DNA of 64,000 nucleotides from assembly GCA_020160915.1 (NCBI GenBank), contig JAIUPK010000003.1:310001-374000 (forward strand), in the 5' to 3' direction. Shown in pieces: positions 31,842-52,666 of this stretch. Both the position numbers and the translations under genes were made by a program. Numbering within the stretch: the first letter of the stretch is position 1; every line of letters starts with the position of its first letter. A model generated the notes under the pieces. That model ran no database searches. It saw nothing but the letters and a program-made list of their open reading frames with translations, and was not told the origin of the DNA. The stretch comes from Actinomycetota bacterium. Lineage in GTDB: Bacteria > Actinomycetota > Actinomycetes > Actinomycetales > Microbacteriaceae.

Positions 31842-31902
31842 GGTGAGATGCGGCAATCGCACGCTCCAGCGCATCATTCCCGGCTGATTGCCGCACCTCA
31901 CC
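31842..31902. repeat. Long imperfect palindrome A, upstream of the first AbiEi/DUF559-like gene
   Basis: Left arm 31842-31858 (GGTGAGATGCGGCAATC) and right arm 31886-31902 (its complement, 16 of 17 matching) flank a 27-base loop. Twenty-three of the first 25 bases match palindrome B downstream of the gene (32866-32890), and the right arms match too. The two copies are direct repeats bracketing one gene. Confidence 0.85.
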
Positions 31903-31952
31903 CTGTGGATGACTCTCGGGTCGCGGGGCGGTGCTCGTGCACTGTGGTCTGC

Positions 31953-32870
31953 GTGACCGCGCGCATCCCTCTCCCCGATGCGCTGGGCACCGCATTCTCC
32001 GTCGCATCCGCGCGCCAACTGGGCATCGGGCCTCGTCGACTTGCGGGAGCTGACCTGGAGCGACCGTTCTGGGGCGTGCGTGCTGCCGCCGGAACCCCGG
32101 ATGACACGGCGTCGGTCGCGCGAACATACTCGGCCAAGATGCCCCCGCATGCCTTCTTCTCGCACGCCACGGCGGCCCAGCTGTGGTCGATCCCACTGCC
32201 CATCCATCTCGAGAATCCGCTGCCGGTCCACGTCTCTGTCCCCTCCGACCGCCGGGCCCCGGAAGGTCGGGGAGTCGCTGGCCATCGTCTCGACATCCAC
32301 CGCGTGGATATCGAAACGATCAACGGGCTCGCCGTTACCTCGCCGGGGCGCACTGTGATCGACCTGGCTCCCCTCCTTGACGACGAACACCTACTCGGAG
32401 CTCTGGACAACATCTTCTGGCGCCGACGGTCGACTGCGTCACGCGCCACCCGGATTTCGTTTCGCGAGTGCCTGGACCGCCATCGAGGCCGCCGTGGCAG
32501 GTCCCGAGTGGAGACGCTGCTGCCACTCACCACCGACCGATCGGACTCGATTCCGGAGTCGGCGTTCCGGCTCCGATTCGTCCGATCGGGTTTCCCCGAC
32601 CCAGTGCCCAACCAGAACGTCTACGACATGAACGGGCGCTTCATCGCCATGCCCGACCTGCAATTTGCTGCCTACCGAATGGCGTTGGACTACGAGGGGG
32701 ACCATCACCGCACGGATGCCCGCCAGTGGCGAAAAGACTTGCGACGGGTCCCACTGCTCGAGGATGCCCACTGGCATCACACGCGTATGTCCGCCGACGA
32801 TCTCGCAGACCCCCGCGAACTGCTGAATCGAACAGCACGCCGCCTGAGGGAGCGAGGCTGGCCGGGGTGA
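31953..32870 (+). CDS. AbiEi-like N-terminal domain plus DUF559/Vsr-like nuclease-type domain
   Basis: A 305-residue protein of unknown role. The N-terminal two thirds resemble AbiEi-type regulators: SARQLGIGPRRLAGADLERP (winged-helix start), FFSHATAAQLWSIPLP and LAVTSPGRTVIDLAPLL. The C-terminal part has PESAFRLRFVRSGFP, MPDLQFAAYRMALDYEGDHH and DARQWRKDLRRVPLLEDAHW, the E..D..E-x-G-x-H and D..R..L pattern of DUF559/Vsr-like endonuclease folds. The GTG at 31953 is chosen; an earlier GTG-type start lies inside palindrome A. Its TGA stop forms part of the left arm of palindrome B. No partner toxin gene (AbiEii) is adjacent. Confidence 0.72.
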   Translation: MTARIPLPDALGTAFSVASARQLGIGPRRLAGADLERPFWGVRAAAGTPDDTASVARTYSAKMPPHAFFSHATAAQLWSIPLPIHLENPLPVHVSVPSDRRAPEGRGVAGHRLDIHRVDIETINGLAVTSPGRTVIDLAPLLDDEHLLGALDNIFWRRRSTASRATRISFRECLDRHRGRRGRSRVETLLPLTTDRSDSIPESAFRLRFVRSGFPDPVPNQNVYDMNGRFIAMPDLQFAAYRMALDYEGDHHRTDARQWRKDLRRVPLLEDAHWHHTRMSADDLADPRELLNRTARRLRERGWPG

Positions 32871-32926
32871 GGTGCGGCAATTGCACGCTCGTGGCCTTCG
32901 CGAGGGCGCGTTTGCCGCACCTCATC
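32866..32926. repeat. Long imperfect palindrome B, at the stop of the first AbiEi/DUF559-like gene
   Basis: TGAGGTGCGGCAA at 32868-32880 pairs exactly with TTGCCGCACCTCA at 32912-32924, loop 31 bases. The left arm begins with the gene's own TGA stop. It is a near-copy of palindrome A upstream. It also lies between convergent genes and could act as a terminator, though no T-run follows. Confidence 0.85.
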
Positions 32927-32973
32927 GGGCGCGGGGGGCGCGTGCGGGAGCGTGCGGGGGCGCTGCGGGCGCG

Positions 32974-34260
32974 TCAGTCGACGCGACCCGCGATCAGCGG
33001 GCCCACGTCGTCGGCCGTGTCGCCGATGCGGTAGGCGCCTTCGAGCGCTTCGAGCGCACGCTCGAAGCGCGCGGGCTCATCCGTGTGCATGGTGAAGAGC
33101 GGCTGACCCTTGGTAACGCGGTCGCCCGGCTTGGCGTGCAGGTCGATGCCCGCAGCGTGGTGCACCGGGTCCTCCTTGCGGGCACGCCCGGCCCCGAGCC
33201 GCCAGGCGGCGATGCCGAACGGCAGCGCGGCCTGCGCGGCGAGAACCCCGTCGGCGTCGGCCGTGACGACCTGGCTCTCGCGCGGTGCGGGCAGTGCGGC
33301 ATCCGGGTCGCCACCTTGGGCTGCGATCATGGCGCGCCAGGTGTCCATCGCGCGGCCATCCTTCAGCGCCGCCTCGACGTCGGCGTCGGGCTGGCCTGCG
33401 AGGGCGAGCATCTCGCGCGCGAGGGCAATCGTGAGCTCGACGACATCGGCCGGGCCGCCACCGGCGAGCACCTCCACCGATTCGCGCACCTCGTTGGCGT
33501 TGCCGATCGCCAGTCCCAGCGGAACGTTCATGTTGGTGAGCAACGCGACCGTCTTCGTGCCGGCATCCTTGCCCAACTGCACCATCGTCTCGGCCAGTTC
33601 GCGACTGCGCGCTGGGTCCTGCATGAACGCGCCCGAGCCGAACTTCACGTCGAGCACGAGGGCCGCGGTCCCCTCCGCGATCTTCTTCGACATGATGGAT
33701 GACGCAATCAGAGGTATCGCTTCGACGGTGCCCGTGATGTCGCGCAAGGCGTAGAGCTTGCCGTCAGCGGGCGCCAGCCCGGACCCGGCCGCGCAAATCA
33801 CCGCACCCACCGACTTCAGCTGCGCGTAGAACTCGTCGTTCGACAGCTTGGCGCGCCATCCGGGGATCGACTCGAGCTTGTCGAGCGTGCCGCCGGTGTG
33901 GCCGAGCCCCCGGCCGGAGAGCTGCGGCACAGCGACGCCGAACGACGCGACGAGCGGCGCGAGCGGCAGGGTGATCTTGTCACCGACACCACCGGTCGAA
34001 TGCTTGTCGGTGGTCGGCTTGCCGAGTCCGTCGAAGGAGAGGGTCTCCCCGGTGGCGATCATCGCGAGGGTGAGGTCGCGGATCTCGGTGCGTTCCATAC
34101 CGTTGAGGAAGATCGCCATGGTCATGGCCGACATCTGCTCATCGGCGACGTAGCCACGGGTGTACGCATCGACGAGCCAGGTGATCTGCTCAGTCGTCAG
34201 CACCCCTTTGTCTCGCTTGGTGCGGATGAGGTCGACGACGTCGAAGGGTTCTACGGCCAT
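32974..34260 (-). CDS. deoA: Thymidine phosphorylase
   Basis: Splits thymidine (and deoxyuridine) with phosphate to base and deoxyribose-1-phosphate. The 428-residue protein has DVVDLIRTKRDKGVLT, MAIFLNGMERTE, the phosphate/pyrimidine-binding KHSTGGVGDKITLPLAPLVA, LSGRGLGHTGGTLDKLESIPG and SSIMSKKIAEGT. The ATG at 34260 has an AAGGAG site 8 bp upstream; longer frames are spurious. It is the last gene of the nucleoside importer operon, separated from cdd by a 40-bp repeat. Confidence 0.94.
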   Translation of the reverse strand: MAVEPFDVVDLIRTKRDKGVLTTEQITWLVDAYTRGYVADEQMSAMTMAIFLNGMERTEIRDLTLAMIATGETLSFDGLGKPTTDKHSTGGVGDKITLPLAPLVASFGVAVPQLSGRGLGHTGGTLDKLESIPGWRAKLSNDEFYAQLKSVGAVICAAGSGLAPADGKLYALRDITGTVEAIPLIASSIMSKKIAEGTAALVLDVKFGSGAFMQDPARSRELAETMVQLGKDAGTKTVALLTNMNVPLGLAIGNANEVRESVEVLAGGGPADVVELTIALAREMLALAGQPDADVEAALKDGRAMDTWRAMIAAQGGDPDAALPAPRESQVVTADADGVLAAQAALPFGIAAWRLGAGRARKEDPVHHAAGIDLHAKPGDRVTKGQPLFTMHTDEPARFERALEALEGAYRIGDTADDVGPLIAGRVD

Positions 34261-34275
34261 GGTGTTTCTCCTTGC

Positions 34276-34311
34276 GATTTCGATACGGCCCGCGGCCTGC
34301 TCAATCAGCGG
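34276..34311. repeat. GTTGAGTAG/CGTATCGAAAC-type extragenic palindrome between deoA and cdd
   Basis: One inverted-orientation copy: GATTTCGATACGG, the palindromic centre CCCGCGG, and CCTGCTCAATC. It belongs to the repeat family at 49647 and 58135. It overlaps the end of cdd, so the repeat supplies the cdd stop codon (complement of TCA at 34301-34303). Confidence 0.7.
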
Positions 34312-34726
34312 CTTTGTACGCCTCGAGCGTGCGCGGCCCGAACGCGTCGGGGATGACCTCGTCGATGGTCCTGATGCCGGAGACCGTCTCGAGCAGCATC
34401 CCCTCGGCGGAGTGCTCGAAGAGCAGCTGGCGGCAGCGCCCGCAGGGCATGAGGGCATTGCCGTGGCCGTCGACGCAGGTGAACGCGACCAGTTTGCCGC
34501 CGCCCGTCATGTGCAGCGACGACACCAGCGCGCACTCCGCACAGAGGGTGAGTCCGTACGACGCGTTCTCGACGTTGGCGCCCGAGATCACGCGCCCGTC
34601 GTCGACGATGGCCGCAACCCCCACGGGGAAGTTGGAGTACGGAACGTAGGCGTGATTGAGGGCCTCCTTGGCAACCCCGCGGAGGGCATCCCAGTCGGCC
34701 TCGGTCTTGGGCAGGTAGTCGGTCAT
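34301..34726 (-). CDS. cdd: Cytidine deaminase
   Basis: Deaminates cytidine and deoxycytidine to uridine and deoxyuridine. The 141-residue tetrameric-type protein has the zinc motif TLCAECALVSSLH (Cys-Ala-Glu) and MPCGRCRQLLFEH (PCxxC). NFPVGVAAIVDDGRVISGANVENASYG is the usual N-terminal region, given here only as the start of the domain. It overlaps the upstream permease gene by 4 bp and precedes deoA, so deoxycytidine can go to deoxyuridine and then be split. The stop codon lies inside an extragenic repeat. Confidence 0.94.
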   Translation of the reverse strand: MTDYLPKTEADWDALRGVAKEALNHAYVPYSNFPVGVAAIVDDGRVISGANVENASYGLTLCAECALVSSLHMTGGGKLVAFTCVDGHGNALMPCGRCRQLLFEHSAEGMLLETVSGIRTIDEVIPDAFGPRTLEAYKAAD

Positions 34727-36026
34727 GATTTGATATACGGCTTTCCTGAGGCTGCGGGCCCGCGCACGTGTCCCACGAAGCCGGCGACCGCCAGGATCGT
34801 GACGACGTACGGAAGCATGAGCATGAACTCGCTCGGCACCGGGGAGCCGATCGCGCTCAACACGCCCTGCAGGTTCGACGCGAAGCCGAACAGGAGCGCC
34901 GCCATGGTCGCTCTGATGGGATCCCAGCGCCCGAAGATGACGGCGGCCAGGGCGATGAAGCCGGCGCCCGCGGTCATCTCCTTGTTGAAGGCTCCCACCG
35001 AACCGAGCGTGAAGTACGCACCACCGAGACCGGCGATGGCACCGGCGAGCGACACATTCCAGAACCGGGTGCTGTTGACGTTGATGCCCACGGTGTCGGC
35101 GGCCTGCGGGTGCTCACCGACGGAACGGAGGCGCAGACCCCACCGCGTCTTGAAGAGGGCGAACCAGACGACGGCCACAGCCACATACATGATGTAGACG
35201 ATGATCGTCTGCCTGAACAGAACCGGCCCGAGGATCGGTATTTCACTGAGCAGCGGGATCGGCAGTCGGGGGAATCGCGGCGGGCTGTTGAGCAGTGCAG
35301 CGTTCGGCGCGAGCACCTTGGAGAACAGGAAGCTCGTGAGACCGACCACGAGCACGTTGAGCACGACGCCGACGATCACCTGATCGACGAAGTACTTGAT
35401 CGAGAACGCCGCAAGCACGAAGGCAACGAGCACGCCCGCGACCACCGCGGCGAGCAGTCCGAGGAGCGGTCCGAAGAACGCGTCCTTGATCACGGATGCC
35501 ACGACCGCCGAGACGAACGCCCCTGCGAGCAACTGGCCCTCGATCGCCACGTTGACCACACCGACGCGCTCGGAGATGACTCCGCCGAGCGCACCGAAGA
35601 TCAGCGGAACACTCAGGCCGACGGCCCCGACGAGCAGACCCGGGATCGGGATGAGCGCCCCGGCCGCAGCCCAGGTGAGGAATCCGATCACGAACAGCAC
35701 CGCGAAGATGCTGACCAGCCACAGTGGCGTGCGTCGAGCGCGCCAGGTGAACCAGAACGCCACCGCGGTGATGGCAACCATCAGCACGGTGATGCTGATG
35801 CTCACCACCTGCACGTCGGCAGGAATCACGGGCAGCTGGATGAGGTCGCTCTCGGTGGAGAGCCGGTAGGTCGTCGTTCCCGTGCGGCCGAACACGATCA
35901 GGAGCAGGAAGGCGAGCACCGAGAAGATCCCGAATGCGACGGGCGCCTTCCAGTTGCGCACGACCGCGGTCTCGAGAGCGGCCCTCGGGGTCGAGGGCAC
36001 GGGCACCTGGGCTGCTGTTGTCGAGG

Positions 36027-36030
<4 letters not shown>
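34723..36030 (-). CDS. Nucleoside ABC transporter permease (second of two)
   Basis: A 435-residue membrane protein of the BMP/RbsC-like permease family (NupQ-type). About ten hydrophobic segments are visible, with LIFGALGGVISERVGVVNVA and IEGQLLAGAFVSAVV, the conserved EGxxL region of branched permeases, and GLRLRSVGEHPQAADTVGIN near residue 310. It overlaps the first permease by 4 bp and cdd by 4 bp. An extra N-terminal 100 residues carry two or more membrane spans before the core. Confidence 0.9.
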
Positions 36031-37285
<1,255 letters not shown>

Positions 37286-37289
<4 letters not shown>

Positions 37290-38806
37290 GCCGCAGCTCC
37301 TGCCTGGGCCGGGGTCTCCCCGGCCATCATGAGTCCAAGTACGTCGCGCGGTGTATCGCCGGGAACGATCCCGACGATGCCTCCGCGGTACATCACCGCG
37401 ATCCGGTCCGCGAGCGCGACGACCTCGTCGAGTTCGGTGGAGACCACGATCACCGGCACGCCGGCATCCCTGGCCTGGATGATCCTGGTGTGCACGAACT
37501 CGATGGATCCGACGTCGAGTCCGCGGGTCGGCTGGGCGGCGACGAACAGCTTGAGATCGCGGCTCAGCTCGCGCGCGAGCACGACTTTCTGCTGGTTGCC
37601 GCCCGACAGCTTGCCGACCGGCGTGTTGATCGACTGCGTGCGAACGTCGAACTCGGCGACCTTGGCCGTCGCGAACTCGGCCAGGTACTTCAGCTGCAGA
37701 GTACCCGCCTTGACGAACGGTGGCTGGGTCGCGCGGTCGAGCATGAGGTTCTCGGAGATGGTGAACTCCGCGATGAGGCCGTCTTCGGTGCGATCCTCGG
37801 GAACGAACCCGACGCCGGCATCGAGCGTCTTGCGCACGGAGAGCTCGCGAAGCGAGACGCCGTGCAGGTGCATGTTGCCGGTGATCCGGTGCTGCAGACC
37901 CATGATCGCCTCGGTGAGCTCGGTCTGGCCGTTGCCCTGAACCCCGGCGATGGCGAGAACCTCGCCCTCGTGCACCTCGAAGCTGACGTTGTTGACGACC
38001 AACTGGTTGCGCTGGTCGATGACCGACAGGTTCTCCACCACGAGCGCTGTCGCCCCTGGATGCGCCGGGCCCTTGTGGATCATCAGGTCGACCGCGCGGC
38101 CCACCATCAGCGACGCGAGCTCCTCGTTGGTCGCCGTCGGAGAGGCCTCGCCGACCACCTTGCCCAAACGGATGACCGTGATGCGGTCCGCGACCTCGCG
38201 CACCTCCCGCAGCTTGTGGGTGATGAACACGATGGAGGTTCCCGACGCCTTGAGCTGGCGCATGATGACCATGAGCTCGTCGGTCTCCTGGGGGGTGAGC
38301 ACTGCGGTGGGCTCGTCGAACACGAGCACCTTCGCGTCGCGCGACAGCGACTTGATGATCTCGACTCGTTGCTGCACGCCGACCGGCAGATCCTCGACGA
38401 GGGCGTCGGGGTCGATATCGAACCCGAATCGCGCTGAGATCTCGCGGACCTTCTGGCGCGCACCGGCAAGGTCGAGACGGCCACCGAACTTCGTCTCCTC
38501 GTGGCCGAGCATGACGTTCTCGGCGACGGTGAATACGGGGATGAGCATGAAGTGCTGGTGAACCATTCCGATGCCCGCGTTCATCGCGTCACCGGGACCG
38601 GCGAAGTGCTGAACCTCATCGTCCAGCAGGATCTCGCCCTCGTCGGCCTGGTACAGCCCGTAGAGCACATTCATCAGTGTGGACTTGCCGGCGCCGTTCT
38701 CGCCCAGCAGTGCGTGGATCTCGCCCGGTTCGACCGTGAGGTCAATGTGGTCGTTTGCGACCAGCGAACCGAACCTCTTCGTGATCCCGCGAAGTTCTAG
38801 CTTCAT
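37286..38806 (-). CDS. Nucleoside ABC transporter ATP-binding protein (two fused domains)
   Basis: A 506-residue protein with two ABC domains, as in sugar and BMP importers. The first has LLGENGAGKSTLMNVLYG (Walker A) and KVLVFDEPTAVLTPQE (Walker B). The second has IAGVQGNGQTELTEAI (degenerate Walker A, no GK[ST]), LSGGNQQKVVLARELS (signature) and VAAQPTRGLDVG. The ATG at 38806 is preferred to an in-frame TTG at 38815. It is the first gene after the hairpin that follows the lipoprotein gene. Confidence 0.92.
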
Positions 38807-38857
38807 GTCGTCCAATCTAACGCGGCGGCTCTGCCGATGGTGCTGTCAAGTTAAGAA

Positions 38858-38896
38858 GGTCGGGGAGACCAGCTGAGGCAGCTGGCCTCCCCGACC
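38858..38896 (-). terminator. Long hairpin between the BMP lipoprotein gene and the ABC genes
   Basis: GGTCGGGGAG pairs exactly with CTCCCCGACC, and inside it CCAGCTG pairs with CAGCTGG around a 3-base loop. On the minus strand the stem is followed by TTCTTAACTT, a modest T-rich tail. It sits between the lipoprotein gene and the downstream permease genes, so it probably gives partial termination and more binding protein than transporter. Confidence 0.7.
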
Positions 38897-38912
38897 GGGG
38901 TACTACTGGTGA

Positions 38913-40010
38913 CTAGCCGAGGTAGCTGGCCACCGGGATGCTGCCGTCGATGATGCCGGCCTTGATCTTGTCGAGCTCACCCTGCAGGTCGGGCGAAACC
39001 TTCGAGTCGAAGTTGTGGAACGGTGCGATACCGACTCCATCGTTCTCCAGGGTTCCGACGTAAGGGGCGTTCGAGAAGTCGCCACCGGCCGCGCCGGTCA
39101 CCACGTCGAACGTCGCCTGCTTGATGCCCTTGAGGATCGAGGTCAGGATGATGTCGGCGGTCGACGGGTCGGTCACGAACAGGTCAGCGTCAACACCGAC
39201 GAGGGCGATGTCCTTGCCCGAGTCGGCGATGGCCGCGACGGCGCTCTGGTAGATCGGTCCACCGACAGGCAGCAGTACATCTGCACCCTGGTCGATGAAG
39301 TTCTGAGCGGTGCTCTTGGCGACGTCGTTGGCCTCGAAGCCACCGGTCATGGTGGCGGTGTCGGGGCTGGCCGGGTCGAAACCGAGGACGGTGACGGACT
39401 TGCCCATCGCCTGGTTGTAGTAGGCAACACCCTGAGCGAAGCCATCCATGAAGATCGTGACGGTGGGGAAGTTCATGCCACCCCAGGTCGCGACGATTCC
39501 GGACTTCGAGTAGCTCGCAGCGGCGTAGCCGGCGAGGAACGCGGCCTGAGCCGTGTTGAACACGATCGGCTTCGTGTTGTCGAAGTCGGGCGTGCCGTTG
39601 AAGTCGGCGTCTGCTGCGTCATCGATCAGCGCGAACTGGATGTCGGGGTTGGCCTCAGCCGCCGTCAGGGTCGCAGCGGAGAGCGCGAAGCCAACGGTGA
39701 AGATGAGCGTGCAGCCCTGCGACACGAGGCTGTCGATGTTCGGTGCGTAGTCGGTCTCGGAAGCGGACTCGACGGTGATCGGCGTGACGCCGAGCGAGTC
39801 GGCCGCCTCGGTGAGGCCCTCGTAGCCGAGCTGGTTGAACGACTTGTCGTCGAAACCGCCGGAGTCGGAGACCATGCAGGGAACGAAATCGCTGGGAGCG
39901 GCGGTCTCGCCGCCAGTTTCGGGTGCTGCTGCACAACCGGCGAGAACGAGCGCGCTCGTACCGATCAGTGCGATACCGCTGAGTACGCGGCCGCGAGAGG
40001 TGATTCTCAA
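38913..40010 (-). CDS. BMP-family nucleoside-binding lipoprotein
   Basis: The 365-residue substrate-binding protein of the adjacent importer. The signal peptide ends in a lipobox ALVLAGC (Cys26), so it is anchored outside the membrane. The mature part has VSDSGGFDDKSFNQLGYEGL, VGFALSAATLTAAEANPDIQ and VLLPVGGPIYQSAVAAI, typical of BmpA/PnrA. I choose the TTG at 40010 because GGAGG lies 5 bases upstream and it gives a normal signal peptide. An ATG-type start at 40052 would put 14 extra residues before it. Confidence 0.92.
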   Translation of the reverse strand: MRITSRGRVLSGIALIGTSALVLAGCAAAPETGGETAAPSDFVPCMVSDSGGFDDKSFNQLGYEGLTEAADSLGVTPITVESASETDYAPNIDSLVSQGCTLIFTVGFALSAATLTAAEANPDIQFALIDDAADADFNGTPDFDNTKPIVFNTAQAAFLAGYAAASYSKSGIVATWGGMNFPTVTIFMDGFAQGVAYYNQAMGKSVTVLGFDPASPDTATMTGGFEANDVAKSTAQNFIDQGADVLLPVGGPIYQSAVAAIADSGKDIALVGVDADLFVTDPSTADIILTSILKGIKQATFDVVTGAAGGDFSNAPYVGTLENDGVGIAPFHNFDSKVSPDLQGELDKIKAGIIDGSIPVASYLG

Positions 40011-40086
40011 GGTGTCCTCCAAGATGCTGCCCGCCAGGAAGTGACGGGACATAGTGCACTACACGTTACCGAATGTTACGAATCAC

Positions 40087-40111
40087 GCATCAGCCAAACC
40101 GAGGCTGACGC
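40087..40111. promoter_or_regulatory. Inverted repeat in the BMP operon leader, candidate operator
   Basis: GCATCAGCC at 40087-40095 and GGCTGACGC at 40103-40111 pair in 8 of 9 positions around a 7-base spacer. It lies about 80 bp upstream of the lipoprotein start. GTAAC occurs three times nearby on the minus strand. No regulator gene is adjacent, so the binder is unknown. Confidence 0.35.
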
Positions 40112-40186
40112 ACAAAGGTTACAAACTCGCGATACCTGGGAAATCAGCGGGAAATGTTCAGTACATTTCGGGGCGGACCGCACCGG

Positions 40187-41308
40187 TTAGAGCACGTCGT
40201 CCCGGCCGGACACCTTGAGGGCATCCACGACTGACTTGACTCGTTGGGCGTTGGCCGTCGTGGTCACGAGCAGGGCATCCGGGGTGTCGACGACGACGAT
40301 ATCGGTCACTCCGATGAGCGAGATGAGCCGACCGCTCTGACTGATCACGACGCCCGTGGACGAGTCGGCGAGTACGCGCGCGTTCTCCCCGAGGATCGCG
40401 AGATCGCTCTTGCGCCCGCCGGCGTGAAGCTTGGCGATCGAGGCGAAGTCGCCGACATCATCCCAGTCGAAGTCGCCCGGGATGACAACGAGCTTGCCTG
40501 ACGCTGCGGCAGGCTCGGCAACCGTGTAGTCGATTGCGATCTTGGGCAGGGACGGCCACACCTTGTCGACGACCGCGCCACGGCGAGGCGTGTCCCAGGC
40601 GGTAGCGAGCTCCGTCAGCCCCTCCAGGAGCCGCGGGTTCGACTCCCCCAGCTGCGCCAGCAGCACGTCGGCGCGGGCGATGAACATGCCGCCGTTCCAC
40701 AGATGGTTGCCATCGGCGACGTACTTCTCGGCGGTGGCAAGATCGGGCTTCTCAACGAAGGACTCGACCGCGACAGCGTGCGGCGCGCCATCGATGGCCA
40801 ACGGCCCGGCGCAGTGGATGTACCCGAACCCGATCGCGGGTTCGGTGGGGGTGATGCCGATGGTCGCGATGTAGCCGGCCCTGGCGGCCGCAACACCCTC
40901 CTCGACCGCGCGACGGAAGCCTCTGACATCCGTGATCACGTGGTCGGCCGCGAATGAGCCGATGATGACGTCGGGTTCACGGGTAACCAGAATCGCCGCC
41001 GCCAGCCCGATCGCCGCTGAGGAGTCCTTCGGCTCACTCTCGAGCACAACGTTGGGATCGGTGAGATCGGGCAACTGAGCCTCCACGGCTGCGCGGTGAG
41101 CGCGGCCGGTCACGACCATGATGCGGTCGCTGCCCGACAGTGGTGCGAGCCGGTCCCAGGTGTCGCGCAGCAGGGTCTGCCCTGACCCGGTGAGGTCGTG
41201 CAGGAACTTCGGTGCATCGGCACGCGAGAGTGGCCAGAGGCGTGATCCGATGCCTCCCGCGGGGATGACGCTGTAGAACCCCGGCACGCTCGCTGCGGAT
41301 CGACTCAT
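40187..41308 (-). CDS. manC: Mannose-1-phosphate guanylyltransferase
   Basis: Makes GDP-mannose from GTP and mannose-1-phosphate for lipomannan-like glycans or polysaccharide. The 373-residue protein has VIPAGGIGSRLWPLSRADAP (nucleotidyltransferase signature), IIGSFAADHVI, FGYIHCAGPL, VESFVEKPD and NGGMFIARADVLLAQL. It lacks the C-terminal cupin isomerase domain of bifunctional ManC/AlgA. It is divergent from the mannosyltransferase-like gene at 41388. Confidence 0.93.
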   Translation of the reverse strand: MSRSAASVPGFYSVIPAGGIGSRLWPLSRADAPKFLHDLTGSGQTLLRDTWDRLAPLSGSDRIMVVTGRAHRAAVEAQLPDLTDPNVVLESEPKDSSAAIGLAAAILVTREPDVIIGSFAADHVITDVRGFRRAVEEGVAAARAGYIATIGITPTEPAIGFGYIHCAGPLAIDGAPHAVAVESFVEKPDLATAEKYVADGNHLWNGGMFIARADVLLAQLGESNPRLLEGLTELATAWDTPRRGAVVDKVWPSLPKIAIDYTVAEPAAASGKLVVIPGDFDWDDVGDFASIAKLHAGGRKSDLAILGENARVLADSSTGVVISQSGRLISLIGVTDIVVVDTPDALLVTTTANAQRVKSVVDALKVSGRDDVL

Positions 41309-41387
41309 GCCTCAAACATAGACTTAAGGGGACATTCACCTGCCGGTCACGTCGTTCCCGGCGGTCCCGTCACGTCACCTTGGCATC

Positions 41388-42524: not shown

Positions 42525-42595
42525 CTGACGCCTCGCGTCCGCGGGAAATCGCAGGAATATCTCGAAATCGAGCTATCTTTCAGCGTGACTGGACA

Positions 42596-42624
42596 GTTGA
42601 CCCCGAAACACAGTCATAGACTGA
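42596..42624 (+). promoter_or_regulatory. Possible sdhCDAB promoter
   Basis: TTGACC near 42597 is followed by TAGACT after about 14 bases, or by a less good hexamer at 17. It lies 75-100 bp upstream of sdhC in the only large gap before the operon. It is suggestive only because of the short spacing. Confidence 0.25.
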
Positions 42625-42697
42625 ATGAGGTCCGGCTACGGGCCGTTCGTCGGTCGCCTCGACGCGACCACTTCAGCCAAGCAAGGAGGGGTCGCTC

Positions 42698-43141: not shown

Positions 43142-43581
43142 GCGTGATCGACGCACCCCGCAGCAAGGCAGCCCCGAAGCGCCGCGGCATCAACTGGGAG
43201 AAGTGGGGCTGGATCTACATGCGCGCGAGCGGTGTCGTGCTCGTCGTGCTGATCTTCGGCCACCTGTTCGTGAACCTCGTTGCCGGTGAAGGCGTCAAGG
43301 CCATCGACTTCGCCTTCGTCGCCGGCAAGTGGGCCGACCCGTTCTGGGTCGTCTGGGACACCCTGCTGCTCTGGCTCGCCCTCATCCACGGCGGCAACGG
43401 CATGCGCACCCTCGTCAACGACTACGCCAACAACACGACAGTGCGGAGGATCCTGCTTGCGGGAATCTTCGCATCCACTGCAATCCTCATCATCCTGGGA
43501 ACCCTTGTGATCTACACGTTCGACCCCTGTCCTGTCGGCGCAGCGCCCGAGCTGCTCCCGAGCTTCTGCCCGGTGCCCTAG
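43138..43581 (+). CDS. sdhD: Succinate dehydrogenase hydrophobic membrane anchor
   Basis: A 147-residue protein with three membrane helices: [38 protein letters not shown] (His in the quinone/heme region) and [34 protein letters not shown] near the start is family-typical. It overlaps sdhC by 4 bp and its TAG overlaps the sdhA GTG by one base. Confidence 0.92.
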
Positions 43582-45386
43582 TGGCCGACCAGATCGCAGA
43601 CGGCACCGTCATCGACGGTGTCCACTACCACCAGCACGAGATCATCATCGTCGGCGCCGGCGGTGCCGGGATGCGCGCAGCAATCGAGGCCGGACCTCAT
43701 GCCTCCACGGCCGTGATCTCCAAGCTCTACCCCACCCGCTCGCACACGGGTGCGGCGCAGGGCGGCATGGCCGCAGCGCTCGCCAACGTGGAGGAGGACA
43801 ACTGGGAGTGGCACACCTACGACACCGTCAAGGGTGGCGACTACCTCGTCGACCAGGATGCCGCTGAGATCCTCGCGAAGGAGGCCATCGACGCGGTCAT
43901 CGACCTCGAGAACATGGGCCTGCCGTTCAACCGCACGCCCGACGGCAAGATCGATCAGCGCCGCTTCGGTGGCCACACCCGTGAGCACGGCAAGGCGCCG
44001 GTGCGTCGTGCGTGCTACGCCGCCGACCGCACGGGTCACATGATCCTTCAGACCCTGTACCAGAACTGCGTCAAGCTCGGCATCAACTTCTTCAACGAGT
44101 TCTACGTGCTCGACCTCGTGATGACCAAGGTCGACGGCAAGGACCAGCCCTCGGGCGTCGTCGCCTACGAGTTGGCGACTGGCGAGCTGCACGTCTTCCA
44201 GGGCAAGGCGATCATCTTCGCCACCGGTGGCTTCGGCAAGATCTACAAGACCACCTCCAACGCCCACACCCTCACCGGTGACGGCGTGGGAATCATCTGG
44301 CGCAAGGGTCTACCGCTCGAGGACATGGAGTTCTATCAGTTCCACCCAACCGGACTCGCGGGCCTCGGCATCCTGCTCTCCGAGGCGGCCCGCGGCGAGG
44401 GCGCGATCCTGCGCAACGCCTCCGGCGAGCGCTTCATGGAGCGCTACACCCCGACCCTGAAAGACCTCGCGCCGCGCGACATCGTCGCCCGTTCGATGGC
44501 TCTCGAGGTGCGCGAAGGCCGCGGTGCCGGTCCCGACAAGGATTACCTGTACCTCGACATCACCCACCTCGAGCCAGCCGTCATCGACGAGAAGCTGCCA
44601 GACATCACCGAGTTCGCCCGCACCTACCTCGGTGTGGAGCCGTACACGGAGCCCGTGCCGGTGCTGCCGACGGCGCACTACGCGATGGGTGGCATCCCGA
44701 CCAACGTCAGTGCCGAGGTACTGCGCACCAACACCGAGGTCGTGCCCGGCCTCTACGCGGCCGGTGAGTGCGCCTGCGTTTCGGTGCACGGGTCGAACCG
44801 CCTGGGCACCAACTCGCTTCTCGACATCAACGTCTTCGGCAAGCGTGCCGGCAAGAACGCGGTCGAGTACGTGAAGAAGACCAAGCAGTTCACTCCCCTG
44901 CCGGAGAACCCGGCGGCGGGTGTGCAGAAGATCCTCGACATGGTGCGCAGCGGGGATGGCAGCGAGCGTGTCGCCGTCATCCGCAAGGAGCTGCAGGACT
45001 CCATGGACCGCAACGCGCAGATCTTCCGCACCGACGAGAGCCTCGAAGAGGTCACCAAGCTCATCGAGACGCTGCGCGGCCGGTACAAGAACATCCAGCT
45101 GCAGGACAAGGGCAAGCGCTTCAACACCGACCTGCTCGAGGCGGTCGAGCTGGGCTTCCTGCTCGACCTCGCCGAGGTGCTCGTCTACTCGGCGCGCAGC
45201 CGCAAGGAGAGTCGTGGCGGTCACATGCGCGAGGACTACCCGGACCGGGATGACAAGAACTTCCTCGTGCACACCATGGCCTACCTGGTCGGCGACCCCG
45301 AATCCAAGGAGGCGGGCGACCACATCAAGATCGACTGGAAGCCGGTCGTGATCACGAACTACCCACCGATGGAGCGCAAGTACTGA
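43581..45386 (+). CDS. sdhA: Succinate dehydrogenase flavoprotein subunit
   Basis: Oxidises succinate to fumarate with covalent FAD. The 601-residue protein has [18 protein letters not shown] (FAD), [20 protein letters not shown] (flavinylated His), [29 protein letters not shown] and [20 protein letters not shown]. The start is the GTG at 43581, fixed by the TAGTG overlap; the longer frame upstream lies in sdhD. It is followed 1 bp later by sdhB. Confidence 0.97.
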
Positions 45387-45387
45387 C

Positions 45388-46146
45388 ATGAGCACCGCAG
45401 CCGTTATGGAGAACCAGCCGCACGTGCCCGAGGTCATCCCGACCTTCACGGCGACCCTGATCATCCGTCGCTTCGATCCTGAGGTGGATGACGAACCGCG
45501 CTGGCAGGACTTCGACGTCGAGCTGCGCGGCACCGACCGCGTGCTCGACGCGCTTCACAAGATCAAGTGGGAGCAGGACGGGTCGCTCACGTTCCGTCGC
45601 TCGTGCGCGCACGGCGTCTGTGGATCGGACGCGATGCGCATCAACGGTCGCAACCGCCTGGCCTGCAAAACCCTCATCAAGGACCTCGACATCTCCAAGC
45701 CCATCTACGTGGAGGCCATCAAGGGTCTGCCGCTGGAGAAGGACCTCATCGTCGACATGGAGCCGTTCTTCGAGAGCTACCGCTCGATCAACCCGTTCCT
45801 CATGGCGTCGGGCTCGCCCGACAAGGAGCGCAAGCAGAGCCCCGTGGAGCGCGCGCGCTTCGACGACACCACCAAGTGCATCCTGTGCGCCGCGTGCACC
45901 TCGAGCTGCCCGGTGTTCTGGACCGACGGCCAGTACTTCGGCCCGGCCGCCATCGTCAACGCGCACCGCTTCATCTTCGACTCGCGCGACGAGGGCGCCC
46001 AGGTGCGCCTCGACATCCTCAACGACAAGGAGGGGGTGTGGCGCTGCCGCACGACGTTCAACTGCTCCGAGGCCTGCCCCCGCGGCATCCAGGTGACGCA
46101 GGCGATCGCCGAGGTGAAGATGGCCGTGCTGCGGGGTAAGCCCTAA
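45388..46146 (+). CDS. sdhB: Succinate dehydrogenase iron-sulfur subunit
   Basis: A 252-residue protein passing electrons from FAD to quinone. It has the 2Fe-2S motif RRSCAHGVCGSDAMRINGRN and later Cys, then CILCAACTSSCPVFW and FNCSEACPRGIQVT for the 4Fe-4S and 3Fe-4S clusters. It ends the operon and converges on ptsI with a 4-bp overlap. Confidence 0.97.
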   Translation: MSTAAVMENQPHVPEVIPTFTATLIIRRFDPEVDDEPRWQDFDVELRGTDRVLDALHKIKWEQDGSLTFRRSCAHGVCGSDAMRINGRNRLACKTLIKDLDISKPIYVEAIKGLPLEKDLIVDMEPFFESYRSINPFLMASGSPDKERKQSPVERARFDDTTKCILCAACTSSCPVFWTDGQYFGPAAIVNAHRFIFDSRDEGAQVRLDILNDKEGVWRCRTTFNCSEACPRGIQVTQAIAEVKMAVLRGKP

Positions 46147-47783
46147 CTGCTCCCGGAATCCCGCGCGCCGGCCGCCGTGGTCGCCGCGAGGGCGCGTGAG
46201 GCGCGGGCCTGCGCCTCCTTGAGCGTGACGGTTCTGAGCTCGGCACGCACGTCGGCGAGGGCTGCCGGCGCCATCGAGAGCGTCGTGCATCCGAGACCCA
46301 CCAGCACGACGGCGAGCTTCGGGTCGGCGGCGGCCTCGCCGCAGACGCCCACGGGCTTGCCCGCAGCGGCGCCTGCATCCCCGAGCATCTTCACGAGCCT
46401 CAGCACGGCCGGATGCCACGGGTCCTGGTACGAGGCAACCGAGCCGAGCATGCGGTCCGCCGCCAACGTGTACTGGGTCAGGTCGTTGGTGCCGATGGAC
46501 ACGAAGTCGCTCACCTCGGCCACCTGGTCGGCCACCACAGCCAGCGACGGCACCTCGGCCATCACACCCACGGTCTTGAGACCGAGCTTCTTGCCGTAGT
46601 CGACGAACCACGTGGTCTCCTCGGCGTCGGAGACCATCGGCGCCATCACCCAGAGATCGGCCGTCGTCGCCGCCTGAGCGATGACGAGCGCCTGCAGTTG
46701 ATCGGCGAGGATCTGCTGGTTCGCGCGCAGCGCCCGAAGGCCGCGCATGCCGAGGGCCGGGTTCTCCTCGTGGGCGTCGTTGAGGAAGCTCAGCGGCTTG
46801 TCGGCTCCCGCGTCGAGCGCGCGCACGACGACCTTCTTGCCGGGGAAGTGCTGGAGCAGGTCGATGTACTGACGGGCCTGCTCGGCCACGGTCGGAGCGG
46901 TCGGCGAGTCGAGGAACAGGAACTCGGTGCGCAACAGACCCACCCCCTCCGCGCCGAGCGCGACGGCCGCCTCGGCGTCCTTCGGCGCGCCGAGGTTGGC
47001 CAGCAGCGGAATTGTGGTCCCGTCGGCCAGGACGCCATCCGTGATCGGAGCTTTCGTCGCCGCCGCGCGCCCGGCGATGCGGGCCTCGGCGGCGGCGATG
47101 GCCGCGGGGGTCGGATCGGTCGCGATGACGCCGGTTGCGGCATCCGCGATCACGACGGTGCCGTCGGTGAGGTCGAGTGCGCCGGTCACGCCGACGATCG
47201 CGACGATCGACTTCGAGCGCGCGAGGATCGCGGTGTGGCTGGTCGGCCCGCCGTCGCGGGTGATGAGGGCGAGCACCTTGTCGAGCTCGAGCAGGGCGGT
47301 GTCTGCCGGCGCGAGATCGGGGGCGACGAGGATGAACGGGGCGTCACTGGTGGGCACGCCCGGCGCGGGTACACCCCGCAGGTGGGCGATGATGCGCTGG
47401 CTCACGTCTGCGAGGTCGGATGCCCGTTCGGCCAGGTAACCGCCCATGGCGGTGAGCTGCTCCTGGAACGACGCGAACGCCTCGAAGACGGCGCGCTCCC
47501 CCGAGGTTCCCGACTCGATGCGCGCCTTGACGTCGTCGGTGAGCGTGGGGTCCTGCGCCATCATGGATGCCGCCTCCAGCACCGCCTGCGCCTCGCCACC
47601 GGCCTTGGCGCCCTTCGCGGCCAACTCCTCGGCCACGACGGCGAGGGACTTGTCTACCCGGGCGTACTCCGCGGCCGGGTCGCCCGCGTGCGGTCCGGCG
47701 ACCGGCTCGGGTAGCGGGTCGGGCATTCTCAGAATCGGGCCGATCGCGATACCGCGTCCGACCCCAACACCATGCAGCTCCAT
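46143..47783 (-). CDS. ptsI: PTS enzyme I (phosphoenolpyruvate-protein phosphotransferase)
   Basis: Takes phosphate from PEP and passes it to HPr. The 546-residue protein starts MELHGVGVGRGIAIGP. The active His is in GGPTSHTAILARSKSI. The PEP-binding barrel has LLRTEFLFLDSPTAPT, NPALGMRGLRALRANQQILA and FVSIGTNDLTQYTLAADR, and the catalytic Cys is in GVCGEAAADPK. Long upstream in-frame extensions are spurious. It could power the orphan IIA/IIB pair at 27103-27818. No ptsH lies next to it. Confidence 0.94.
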   Translation of the reverse strand: MELHGVGVGRGIAIGPILRMPDPLPEPVAGPHAGDPAAEYARVDKSLAVVAEELAAKGAKAGGEAQAVLEAASMMAQDPTLTDDVKARIESGTSGERAVFEAFASFQEQLTAMGGYLAERASDLADVSQRIIAHLRGVPAPGVPTSDAPFILVAPDLAPADTALLELDKVLALITRDGGPTSHTAILARSKSIVAIVGVTGALDLTDGTVVIADAATGVIATDPTPAAIAAAEARIAGRAAATKAPITDGVLADGTTIPLLANLGAPKDAEAAVALGAEGVGLLRTEFLFLDSPTAPTVAEQARQYIDLLQHFPGKKVVVRALDAGADKPLSFLNDAHEENPALGMRGLRALRANQQILADQLQALVIAQAATTADLWVMAPMVSDAEETTWFVDYGKKLGLKTVGVMAEVPSLAVVADQVAEVSDFVSIGTNDLTQYTLAADRMLGSVASYQDPWHPAVLRLVKMLGDAGAAAGKPVGVCGEAAADPKLAVVLVGLGCTTLSMAPAALADVRAELRTVTLKEAQARASRALAATTAAGARDSGSS

Positions 47784-47843
47784 GTGTGTCAAGGTCCTCT
47801 CGAGAAATAAGTTGCCCGTCGTCACTCTAGCTACGCTGGGGCC

Positions 47844-48797
47844 ATGACGGTGAGGGAGCGGTTCGCTGCTGTGGTCGCGCGAGTGCAGGCTCTCAAGCCG
47901 GTGCGCGTGTTCGACCGCTACGCGAGGAGCCGTGGTCCCCTGCTCTCGGCCGGACTGTCGTATCAGGCGATCTTCGCCGTGTTCGGCGGAATCTGGGTGG
48001 TGTTCGCGATCGCTGGCGCCGTGATCGCGTCGCGACCCACTCTGCAACGGGCACTGTTCGATCTCATCGAGACGAGCATCCCGGGCCTCATCGATGACGG
48101 CAGCGGCACCGGCGCGATCGACGTCGAGAACCTGTTCTCGGCGGGCATCTTCGGCTGGACGGGCGTGATCGCCGCTGGCGTGCTGCTGTTCACCGCCCTC
48201 GGGTGGCTGGCGTCGGGTCGCGACGCCGTGCGCGCGATGTTCGGTCTGCCCGTAGCGGCGACCAACCCGGTGCTGCTCAAGCTGAAAGACCTCGGACTCG
48301 CGGTCGGGTTCGGTCTGGTCATCGTGGTGTCGGCCGTGCTGACCGTGCTTGCGACGTCGTTCCTGGGCGGCGTCTTCGACTGGCTGGGCGTCGACCAGCG
48401 ATCGGATGCCCCAGCCCTCGCCATCCGCGCCGCAGTTCTGCTCATCGTGCTCGGCCTCGACACCCTCGTGCTCGGCACCTTCTACCGGGTGGTCTCGGGT
48501 ATCGCCATCCCGTTCCGCCTGCTCGCGCAGGGAACACTTCTGGCTGCACTGGCCCTGGGCGTGCTCAAGGTTCTCGGCACGAGCCTGCTCGGCGGCGCGA
48601 CCAGCAACCCGCTGCTGGCGTCATTCGCGGTGATCATCGGTCTGCTGCTGTGGTTCAACCTGGTCTGCCAGGTGATTCTGATCGGGGCCGCGTGGATCGC
48701 CGTGAGCGCGGATGACGCGGGGGTCGACCTCACCGGCAAGAAGAAGCGGGGCACGGCCAAACAGTCGGCCGCGAAGGCTGTCGTAGCCCCCCAGTAG
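47844..48797 (+). CDS. YihY/BrkB-family membrane protein
   Basis: A 317-residue protein with six hydrophobic segments: LSYQAIFAVFGGIWVVFAIA, TGVIAAGVLLFTALGWLASG, GLAVGFGLVIVVSAVLTVLA, AAVLLIVLGLDTLVLGTFYR, LLAALALGVLKVLGTSLLGG and FAVIIGLLLWFNLVCQVILI. FRLLAQGTLLAALAL with LLLWFNLVCQVILIGAAW is the family's best-kept part. The C-terminus is lysine-rich. The family's function is not settled. Confidence 0.85.
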   Translation: MTVRERFAAVVARVQALKPVRVFDRYARSRGPLLSAGLSYQAIFAVFGGIWVVFAIAGAVIASRPTLQRALFDLIETSIPGLIDDGSGTGAIDVENLFSAGIFGWTGVIAAGVLLFTALGWLASGRDAVRAMFGLPVAATNPVLLKLKDLGLAVGFGLVIVVSAVLTVLATSFLGGVFDWLGVDQRSDAPALAIRAAVLLIVLGLDTLVLGTFYRVVSGIAIPFRLLAQGTLLAALALGVLKVLGTSLLGGATSNPLLASFAVIIGLLLWFNLVCQVILIGAAWIAVSADDAGVDLTGKKKRGTAKQSAAKAVVAPQ

Positions 48798-48806
48798 TGT
48801 CGACGC

Positions 48807-49646
48807 ATGGTTCTTCGCATCGCGTCCGTCAACACGAACGGCGTTCGCGCCGCCTACCGCAAGGGCATGGGCGACTGGCTTGCGGCGCGCAACGTCGACA
48901 TCCTCGCGCTGCAGGAGGTGAGGGCATCCACCGAGGATCTCGAGCAGCTGCTCGGGTCGGAGTGGGACATTCTGCACGACGCCGCCACCGCGAAGGGGCG
49001 CGCCGGGGTTGCCCTGGCATCGCGACGCAAGGCGAGCATTCACCGTGTTGCGCTCGGGGCCGATGACTTCGACAGCGCCGGCCGCTGGATCGAGGCCGAC
49101 TACGAGGTCGGCGATCAGATCATCACAGTCGTCAGCACGTACGTGCACTCGGGCGAGGTCGACAGCCCCAAGCAGGTGGAGAAGTACACCTTCCTCGACG
49201 CCATGACCGAGCGGATGCCGCAGCTCGTCGCCCACAGTCCGCTGGCGGTGCTCATTGGCGACCTGAACGTCGGCCACCGCGAGTTGGACATCAGGAACTG
49301 GAAGGGCAACCGCAAGAACGCCGGGTTCCTGCCCCAGGAACGCGCGTACTTCGACCGCTTCTTCGGTCCGGCGGGCGAGCCGGTCGAGGGCGTCGACGGC
49401 TCGGTCGGCCCGGGGCTCGGTTGGGTGGATGTCGGACGCCGCTGGGCGGGCGAAGTCGACGGGCCGTACACGTGGTGGTCGAACCGCGGCCAGGCCTTCG
49501 ACACCGACACCGGCTGGCGCATCGACTACCACGTCGCCACCCCTGCGCTGGCCGACACCGTCACCGCCTACAGCGTGGACCGTGCGGCCGCCTACGACCA
49601 GCGCTGGAGCGACCACGCGCCGGTGGTCGTGGACTACGACGTGTAG
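48807..49646 (+). CDS. xth: Exodeoxyribonuclease III / AP endonuclease
   Basis: DNA repair nuclease acting at abasic sites. The 279-residue protein has RIASVNTNGVRAAYRKG (metal Asn), ILALQEVRASTEDLE (metal Glu), LIGDLNVGHRELDIRNWKGN (catalytic Asp-x-Asn) and RWSDHAPVVVDYDV with the DH pair. It is close to other actinobacterial exonuclease III sequences. It follows the YihY gene after 9 bp. Confidence 0.93.
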   Translation: MVLRIASVNTNGVRAAYRKGMGDWLAARNVDILALQEVRASTEDLEQLLGSEWDILHDAATAKGRAGVALASRRKASIHRVALGADDFDSAGRWIEADYEVGDQIITVVSTYVHSGEVDSPKQVEKYTFLDAMTERMPQLVAHSPLAVLIGDLNVGHRELDIRNWKGNRKNAGFLPQERAYFDRFFGPAGEPVEGVDGSVGPGLGWVDVGRRWAGEVDGPYTWWSNRGQAFDTDTGWRIDYHVATPALADTVTAYSVDRAAAYDQRWSDHAPVVVDYDV

Positions 49647-49740
49647 CTGGTTTGAGTAGCGGCCTGTAGGTGGGTTGAGTAGCGGCGCAGCCGCGTATCG
49701 AAACCCTGGTCTCGATACGGCCTGCGGCCTACTCGACCGG
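49647..49740. repeat. Cluster of GTTGAGTAG...CGTATCGAAAC extragenic repeats
   Basis: Three copies in the xth-trpS gap: a partial copy at 49647-49670, a direct copy GGTTGAGTAGCGG...CGTATCGAAACC at about 49672-49705, and an inverted copy at 49707-49740 (TCTCGATACGG...CCTACTCGACC). Each unit has a GC palindrome in its centre. The same family occurs at 34276 and 58135. Confidence 0.8.
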
Positions 49741-49750
49741 CCCGGTCTGA

Positions 49751-51474
<1,724 letters not shown>

Positions 51475-51497
51475 CGGGCCGACCTCGGCCCGTCTCG

Positions 51498-51595
51498 TGT
51501 CGATAACTCCTGCAATCGTGTTCTGAGCGCCTGCGCCAACAGCCAACGCGAGCGTTCACCTTGTTCGGAGTCCCCGAACTGCAGGAGTTATCAAC
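51498..51595. repeat. Long palindrome C, downstream of the second AbiEi/DUF559-like gene
   Basis: GTCGATAACTCCTGCA near 51499-51514 pairs with its complement at 51580-51595 (15 of 16), around a 65-base spacer. The left arm plus the following ATCG is identical over 21 bases to palindrome D at 52566-52586. The gene lies between C and D on the minus strand. Confidence 0.85.
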
Positions 51596-51621
51596 CGAGA
51601 GGAGGTGGCTACCTGCGGCTG

Positions 51622-52497
51622 TCACGGTCTCCTGGTGGAGTCCAGCAGGTGCCGGATCGCATCCACGACCTCGTTCGTGCGGTGCATCGTGCGGTTATAG
51701 GCCGGTCTGAGGGACATGTATCCCAGCCGGGCCGCGTCGATGTCACGATCGCGATCACGCACGTGCAGCTCCCATCCATCGTGGGCGAGTCTGCTGTCGG
51801 CCTCCCAGATGAGGCGCCCCTCGACCACCCCATCGACTCGCCCGACTCCGGGGATGACGACCTGGATCTCCGAGCGCAGTCCCGCGTCTTCGAGGGCGGC
51901 GCGCAGAACCGTCTCCTGACCCGACTCACTGCGCGGGTCTATGCGAGCTCGGAGAAATTGGTGCCCGGACCCAAGCCCGGCGAATAGCTCAGCGATGCCG
52001 GCCTCGTCGACCTTGCCGAGGAAGAGTGCGTTCTCGATGGACGCGAGTGCCAGGTGGGGCGGACTGCATCTGACAGTCTGTGCGAGGGCGTCCACGACTC
52101 CCACGCTGACCTCGGAGCCGGCCTCAGGCTCGAGAAGAGCCGACCAATGAAGTTCAGTACCTGCGCGATTGGCGCGAGTCAGGTGATGGCGGCGGTCGTG
52201 TGGGCTACGAGCTCGGGAGAGCTCACGCGGAAGGTGGATGTGCGTGACATGGCTCTCGAAGCCGAATATCCCGAAAGCGCGCAGAGCCGTCACACAACCC
52301 AGTCGACCCCCAACCCGAACCGCCCGTAGGACGTGCAGGTCGGTCGACGGAAGGGCGTAGTGGTCGCGACGAACCCGAAGGAGAACTCCAGACCGCACAC
52401 CCCCGGTGAGCATTCGCGACGTGGCCCCGATCGAGAACAGCTGCTCCCGCGACGCAACGGCCAACCCGAGTTCGCCGAACGCAGCACTCCATGTCAC
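51622..52497 (-). CDS. Second AbiEi-like plus DUF559/Vsr-like protein
   Basis: A 291-residue relative of the protein at 31953. The N-terminal part is a winged-helix/AbiEi-like region: LAVASREQLFSIGATSRMLT, VLLRVRRDHYALPS and GGRLGCVTALRAFGIFGF. The C-terminal part has SESGQETVLRAALEDAGLRS, GVGRVDGVVEGRLIWEADSR and RDRDRDIDAARLGYMSL, the E..D..E-x-D and D..R pattern of a DUF559/PD-(D/E)XK-like fold. Identity to the first copy is low by eye. The start is the GTG at 52497. It is a lone gene, with no cognate toxin, between the HAD gene and the riboflavin operon. Confidence 0.72.
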   Translation of the reverse strand: MTWSAAFGELGLAVASREQLFSIGATSRMLTGGVRSGVLLRVRRDHYALPSTDLHVLRAVRVGGRLGCVTALRAFGIFGFESHVTHIHLPRELSRARSPHDRRHHLTRANRAGTELHWSALLEPEAGSEVSVGVVDALAQTVRCSPPHLALASIENALFLGKVDEAGIAELFAGLGSGHQFLRARIDPRSESGQETVLRAALEDAGLRSEIQVVIPGVGRVDGVVEGRLIWEADSRLAHDGWELHVRDRDRDIDAARLGYMSLRPAYNRTMHRTNEVVDAIRHLLDSTRRP

Positions 52498-52565
52498 CTT
52501 ACGAGTCTCGGAGCCGACGCCCGCCTACGGTGGCGTGACGGGCGTGCCGGTGGAGAGCTGCCCCT

Positions 52566-52666
52566 TGTCGATAACTCCTGCAATCGACAGTGAGAGGCGA
52601 TGGATGGCACCGGTTCTCCGCGGCACCCTCTGACCTCCGGTACCAGCTCGCAGGAGTTAGCGACAA
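52566..52666. repeat. Long palindrome D, upstream of the second AbiEi/DUF559-like gene
   Basis: TTGTCGATAACTCCTGC at 52565-52581 pairs with its complement at 52650-52666 (16 of 17). The left arm and flank match palindrome C exactly over 21 bases. The interior of about 68 bases differs from that of C, so only the arms are conserved. Confidence 0.85.

Follow-up and report, generated by a model that had tools for sequence, protein, structure and literature searches.

Two AbiEi-like nuclease genes of Microbacteriaceae and their matched, dispersed palindromes: a possible REPIN-RAYT-like arrangement with a non-homologous enzyme

Genes A and B and their palindromic elements

The window (the whole stretch of DNA that was analysed, 64 kb) contains two genes, A and B, each lying between two copies of a palindromic element of its own (Table 1). 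This architecture, two members of one protein family each with a matched palindrome pair, was proposed in the first-pass annotation; it was confirmed at both loci and is extended here by solo copies. The 57-bp core of the upstream element A (31844-31900) reads TGAGATGCGGCAAT...ATTGCCGCACCTCA, and the stop codon TGA of gene A forms the first three bases of the downstream copy. The GTG start of gene A was our choice and that of gene B is the first of its ORF. Two details of the initial description had to be abandoned. The spacers, said to be short, actually measure about 29 bp (A) and 60 bp (B) between core arms, and the inverted-repeat search, which was limited to 60 bases between arms, reported the A pair and left out the B pair because the arms of the latter lie further apart than this limit. 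Likewise, the GCAATCG-like edge thought to be shared by the elements did not persist in other copies, which read GCAATTGC, GCAATAAC or GCAAATTC, nor in gene-B relatives (AACTCATGC or AACTCAGGCA).

Table 1. Coordinates of genes A and B and of their flanking elements in the window
Feature	Position	Strand	Description
Palindromic element A, upstream copy	31842..31902	.	17-bp arms; inverted repeat
Gene A, 305 aa	31953..32870	+	AbiEi-like N-terminal and central part, C-terminal Vsr/MTES_1575-type nuclease
Palindromic element A, downstream copy	32868..32924	.	Inverted repeat
Palindromic element B, 3' of gene B	51502..51592	.	Reads GATAACTCCTGCAAT...TGCAGGAGTTATC
Gene B, 291 aa	51622..52497	-	N-terminal part weakly AbiEi-like; DUF559/EDxHD-type nuclease at the C-terminus
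Palindromic element B, 5' of gene B	52565..52666	.	Core 52570-52660

Both arms were over-represented in the window. Arm A occurred eight times with up to two mismatches, four of these within its flanking elements (chance mean 2.1; eight matches reached in none of 100 shuffles), and the four occurrences of arm B all belonged to elements B (chance mean 0.14; four reached in 0/100), the right arm of the 5' copy displaying two mismatches relative to the arm searched. Genome-wide, with at most one mismatch, 12 of 18 arm-A matches made up six elements of exactly 57 bp each, two flanking gene A and four solo (reversed-pattern control: six matches). The 18 arm-B matches (control: none) resolved into eight pairs with both arms, one unpaired left arm belonging to a ninth element with a degenerate right arm, and a single isolated match; two copies of 91 bp flank gene B and the seven solo copies range from 80 to 92 bp.

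Judged by third-position GC content, 13 of 15 A and B copies were located outside coding-like ORFs; solo copies B4 and B5 overlap possible 5' ORF extensions. Folding as single-stranded DNA exceeded that of shuffles in the 17 copies tested (z -2.6 to -7.3), which is what the arms alone would cause, and left-right complementarity just inside the arms was no greater than in the control. No simple intrinsic terminators were found around gene A or gene B. An FMN riboswitch upstream of ribD (52754-52898), near the 5' palindrome of gene B, was the sole match of a search for known RNAs from 31000 to 53300. Another dispersed REP family, of the GGTTGAG...TCGAAACC type, is present in the same genome in about a dozen or more copies (e.g. 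L007:1369-1404).

The protein family and its nuclease domain

Genes A and B are remote relatives within a single superfamily, the profile made from each reaching members of the other. Their own Pfam matches were weak and below cut-off (MTES_1575 REase, E 0.0047, for A; DUF559, E 0.051, and AbiEi_4, E 0.075, for B). At the level of the families (E<=0.01), MTES_1575 was matched by 22 of 31 members of family 1 and 50 of 60 of family 2, and DUF559 by 10/31 and 45/60, respectively. Single PADLOC AbiEi models matched up to 30/31 and 35/60 members and, combined, they span residues 16-193 of protein A, its AbiEi-like part; a PADLOC homing-endonuclease model matched 2/31 and 13/60. The MTES_1575 domain has been described as a Vsr-family REase (PMC3710099).

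The initial description had asked whether active-site residues line up in the C-terminal domain, and conserved candidates were found there. The candidate residues E202, D235, H252 and D262 of gene A are among the invariant columns of family 1. In family 2, E195, D222 and D248 of gene B are invariant and the further candidates E232, D234 and H239 occur in at least 90% of rows. Compared with PDB entries, the family-2 profile matched 3hrl ('Endonuclease-Like Protein', E 6.7e-10), with the VD, E-DG and H positions retained, and 3r3p ('Mobile intron protein', E 2.3e-5), where the E and the last D are retained and the D of VD and the H are not; the family-1 profile reached 3r3p with an E of 0.15 only. 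We take 3r3p to be I-Bth0305I and the conserved E, D, H and D residues presumably represent the EDxHD motif. Both proteins, as judged from their sequences, carry a Vsr/EDxHD-like nuclease domain with conserved candidate active-site residues.

Relatives of gene B occurred in 35 of 60 genomes of the bacterial family, taken to be Microbacteriaceae (E<=1e-10), and those of gene A in 103 of 150 (E<=1e-12), the window's genome (G000) being included in both and genomes recurring between the two sets. Of ten gene pairs taken from both families, nine gave a dN/dS of about 0.14-0.27, with dS near saturation; in the tenth, dS was not computable. By these estimates the genes are under purifying selection, dN being well below dS. 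A phage or plasmid origin was considered and rejected: searches with protein P0002 found nothing in plasmids (E<=1e-8), in phages (E<=1e-3) or, as relatives, in viral contigs, and the plasmid search with P0001 returned four distant matches in Arthrobacter and Tsukamurella (28.5-32.9% identity).

The gene B site was conserved across genera. Among the loci tested, both its HAD-hydrolase and ribD neighbours were found at G168, G164, G156, G167, G171 and two Glaciihabitans loci, and one of the two at G165 and at Lacisediminihabitans, Cryobacterium and Galbitalea loci. Among 15 loci of gene-B relatives, several of which duplicate earlier ones, 11 displayed matched palindromes at a score of at least 8 and 10 at a score of at least 10; of the four loci that gave no match, two are truncated in a flank. 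All 11 gene-B-type palindromes contain AACTC (in reversed order at L319), extended to TAACTC in about half of them; next to it comes an inner segment that varies (CTGCA, ATGC, AGGCA, AGCCTG, AGGAGA, CGGAAA and others). This combination of AACTC with a diverged inner part at gene B orthologs near HAD hydrolase and/or ribD genes indicates that protein and palindrome changed together. The initial description had left open whether the system was domesticated or selfish, and a partial answer can be given: gene B looks domesticated, from its same site in several genera and its dN well below dS.

Matched pairs, dispersed copies and arm-protein congruence in related genomes

Flanking pairs were detected as the same hairpin arm present both upstream and downstream of one gene, usually with a threshold score of at least 10. 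At this threshold, matched pairs were found at 55 of 122 loci vs 22 of 2500 mispaired flanks and, after gene calling in an overlapping set, 55 of 144 genes reached it, compared with 22 of 4000 mispaired flanks, the remaining 89 genes being without a detected pair. The matched pairs support the idea that each protein has its own palindrome. Upstream and downstream elements were equal in length in 41 of 58 genes scoring at least 9. The window's genome contains five further family members (L041, L042, L043, L044 and L382), and the next best relatives of genes A and B there display 41% and 36% identity, respectively. L042 (G000:C3:3663-4445), broken by one internal TAG, keeps its own flanking pair with arms GCGGATCAGGA (score 13.6). 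L041 (9.0) and L382 (7.2) have weaker, different pairs under the threshold of 10, and flanking-pair detection gave none for L043 and L044. At L044:1999-2098, a partial family match is followed by two tandem palindromes with arm-B-like arms TTGTGCAGGA.

A congruence between protein clades and palindrome clusters, proposed in the initial description as a check, was clear in family 2 and less so in family 1. Arm similarity correlated with protein relatedness in Mantel tests of family 2 (rho 0.256, p 0.0002, n=33), the result being borderline in family 1 (rho 0.167, p 0.053, n=20). The share of family 2 pairs with an arm score of at least 7 rose from 3% at 25-30% protein identity to 12% at 35-40%, 33% at 40-50% and 70% at 50-60%, and both pairs above 60% reached that score. 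On a quick protein tree with the loosest arm clustering, three arm-cluster changes were counted in family 1 (minimum 3; shuffled mean 5.8) and three in family 2 (minimum 2; shuffled minimum 5), leaving out L325 (same protein as L217) and rows with unique arms. Compared with shuffled labels, arm clusters followed the tree in five of six settings (p <= 0.002), the sixth being family 1 with the strictest clustering (8 rows, p 0.18). L062 and L150 were dropped from the Mantel, sliding-window and tree tests, the shared repeat at each of these loci being self-complementary or remote. Exceptions occurred: L166 and L074 are 57% identical and differ in arm, and L086 and L095 (about 40%) have a common arm. 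These comparisons indicate that palindrome sequence follows protein phylogeny, clearly in family 2 and at the border of significance by Mantel test in family 1.

In sliding windows, a weak trend was observed in both families for residues ~40-140 to track the arm better than the nuclease does, which weakly suggests a closer tie of this region to the arm. Co-variation of outer arm bases within elements was discounted: the signal obtained by pooling four genomes (0/2000 permutations) is confounded by genome-specific consensus, and it was not significant within G000 alone (p 0.13).

In the genus survey, 19, 16 and 25 arm-B matches were counted in G000, G164 and G168, where gene B was seen flanked by arm B, against 0-9 (mean 3.4) in the 24 other genomes (reversed-pattern control over the genus: 0-8); the contrast between 3 and 24 of the 27 genomes gave a Mann-Whitney p of 0.003 for a grouping chosen after the counts were known. 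G170, without a close gene B, has nine matches including four paired elements that were read. Solo B4 is also found in G170, at the corresponding position, indicating that some of the copies are old. Another arm, CGAAATGCAGGA, had 51 matches in G048 (control 4), 89 in G029 (control 2) and 22 in G022 (control 4), the two genes with a pair in G022 carrying other arms.

All 20 paired elements in the 14 regions read in G048, chosen among the matches listed, are 81 bp long with near-invariant 16-bp ends, and 19 of them lie outside coding-like ORFs. Their loops have a median identity of 0.46 vs 0.37 when shuffled (two local pairs reach 0.93), indicating that some homology is left in the diverged loops. 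The 37 elements from 19 regions of G029 measure 92 bp (25), 93 bp (5), 81 bp (5), 102 bp and 104 bp, and many of them have common loops and occur in arrays mixed with another REP family. Sequence similar to the GGTTGAG...TCGAAACC REP is interspersed with the nuclease-linked palindromes in these arrays (L365, L372). The 28 B elements from four genomes, which include two local duplicate pairs, split into nine of 74-75 bp and 19 of 84-86 bp, with no intermediate lengths. Together with the G029 values, lengths group into 74-75/84-86 (n=28) and 81/92-93/102-104 bp (n=37), neighbouring classes differing by about 11 bp. Such increments would be expected if the two arms had to lie on one face of the duplex, which suggests that the DNA is recognised in double-stranded form; length classes passed on by descent could give a similar picture.

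Comparison of solo B6 with 25 loci, most of them too diverged upstream to judge, revealed empty sites. In the window's genome, about 119 bp (15 bp, a 90-bp palindrome and 14 bp) lie between ...TTCTGCCAGA and TAGACTG. G156 and G171 display CCAGA followed directly by TACACTG, the palindrome being absent, and it is also missing from G168, G164 and G165, where the same upstream block was recognised. Relative to these sites, solo B6 appears as an insertion of about 119 bp, which is compatible with dispersal by the cognate enzyme.

A REPIN-RAYT-like reading and its alternatives

We consider it probable that every protein is matched to a palindrome of its own, the two working like a REPIN-RAYT system with a non-homologous enzyme. 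The AbiEi-like part would read an arm of roughly 12-16 bp, and a dimer would probably hold both inverted arms of one element, at a set distance and on the same helix face. The Vsr/EDxHD nuclease domain would nick or cut at the element or close to it, after which short palindromes would be spread into intergenic DNA by repair or transposition. The gene would be single-copy per palindrome type, tend to keep its site and remain under purifying selection, as for RAYTs. Binding, the domain responsible for it, dimerisation, cutting, and mobilisation by this protein rather than by another enzyme are steps that we infer.

REPINs and RAYTs, as far as described in PMC3116915, PMC8049555 and PMC8266576, combine a single-copy, vertically inherited gene near its cognate elements with inverted doublets of diverse spacer, co-evolution and clusters. 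The present elements are likewise multicopy, extragenic inverted doublets, with two conserved arms at a near-fixed distance around a diverse spacer; they are dispersed and clustered, and the gene near its cognate palindromes appears to co-evolve with them. RAYTs, in contrast, belong to the HUH/Y1 enzymes and act on REPs that are single-stranded and GTAG-tagged, whereas the proteins here are fusions of an AbiEi-like and a Vsr/EDxHD-type part, and the length steps of roughly 11 bp suggest double-stranded recognition. Examined by eye, the arms of the A, B, G048 and G029 elements are without a GTAG tag. Since the enzyme is unrelated to RAYTs, these systems are not RAYTs. To our knowledge, HUH tyrosine transposases are the only known dedicated partners of REP-like palindromes. 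Some REP classes, such as the CGTC REPs, are mentioned as being without a known enzyme (PMC3733652). TIRtrons (TIRYT), outlined in the same source, also place an enzyme gene between repeats that can form dispersed families, but their enzyme is a HUH tyrosine transposase.

Two other known systems resemble parts of the proteins. The EDxHD homing endonuclease I-Bth0305I, which according to a review dimerises on a very long target of nearly 60 bp (PMC3943268), has a homologous nuclease domain (3r3p, see above). Here, however, no intron or intein was seen, an AbiEi-like DNA-reading part is present, and the genes lie between two whole palindromes instead of inside their own disrupted target. AbiEi antitoxins of type IV toxin-antitoxin systems share the AbiEi-like N-terminal and central region and bind inverted repeats (PMC7319586). 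The proteins described here have an additional nuclease domain, their palindromes lie at either side of the gene as well as elsewhere in the genome, and no AbiEii toxin gene adjoins A and B. No report of this nuclease-palindrome system was found in the part of the open-licence literature that was searched, and a term search of the RepRanger survey (PMC12306157) found no word starting with RAYT, nuclease or transposase.

A broader proposal, which we advance tentatively and rate just short of an even chance, is that of a second, independently evolved class of palindrome-dispersing enzymes: a double-strand-reading AbiEi-EDxHD nuclease dimer that would measure two arms in helical phase and copy or fix arm pairs at a set spacing in intergenic DNA, domesticated and co-evolving across Microbacteriaceae. 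If this is true, the REPIN/RAYT-like arrangement would have evolved twice, with a non-homologous nuclease in the same architecture, and a likely role would emerge for uncharacterised DUF559-like proteins common in Microbacteriaceae. Dozens of natural protein-target pairs would also become available for studying how specificity might be determined by a reader of the AbiEi type.

The AbiEi-like region and the palindrome upstream of each window gene could otherwise belong to a regulatory system, where an AbiEi-type autorepressor would use the flanking palindromes as operators and the solo copies as its regulon, the nuclease domain being vestigial; AbiEi antitoxins are reported to regulate their own expression by way of inverted repeats located in the promoter (PMC7319586). 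We regard this as unlikely, given that genes with a detected pair carry a second palindrome on the downstream side, in many cases no further than about 40 bp from the stop codon, that G029 contains arrays and dozens of copies, and that the candidate active-site residues are invariant or nearly so. Furthermore, no AbiEii nucleotidyltransferase toxin occurred among the four genes neighbouring A and B (nucleoside hydrolase, pyrimidine phosphorylase, HAD hydrolase and RibD). The placement of G048 copies also speaks against operators: 13 of the 17 classified lie between convergent genes, or 12 of 17 when the nuclease gene overlooked by the rough third-position-GC ORF call is counted (3/20 unclassified).

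A shade less likely still is mobilisation of the palindromes by an unrelated enzyme (RAYT or other transposase), with nuclease genes that exploit or guard them, for instance as homing nucleases targeting them. The homology of the nuclease domain to a mobile-intron protein, the second REP family interspersed in G029 and the paired B palindromes of G170 would agree with it, the last fitting gene loss as well. Yet the flanking gene is congruent with its palindrome over several clades, no Y1/HUH transposase domain was among the matches of the 91 family proteins scanned (31 + 60, E<=0.01), and the genes do not interrupt a target, both flanking palindromes being whole.

Of 20 loci read for the gene-A site (its own included), both neighbours were located in 12 loci of the genus, seven with a family gene and five with 9-245 bp in its place, which would fit gain or loss of a gene-A cassette. 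Such a pattern might also be left by a palindrome-gene-palindrome transposon with solo palindromes as relics of its ends, a very improbable reading in view of the one copy per subfamily in the window's genome, the single site kept by gene B in several genera, and ends that are whole palindromes with diverged loops instead of simple terminal repeats. Palindromes of the occupants were GAGGTGCGGCRA (three), GAGGTAAGCC (two) and of the GAGAGTAC type (two), two occupants belonging to a subfamily with another palindrome. The gene-free site of G170 (L170) holds a different palindrome, GAGAYCTCCACTTTTGCTGCC, and this intergenic spot may therefore attract such elements.
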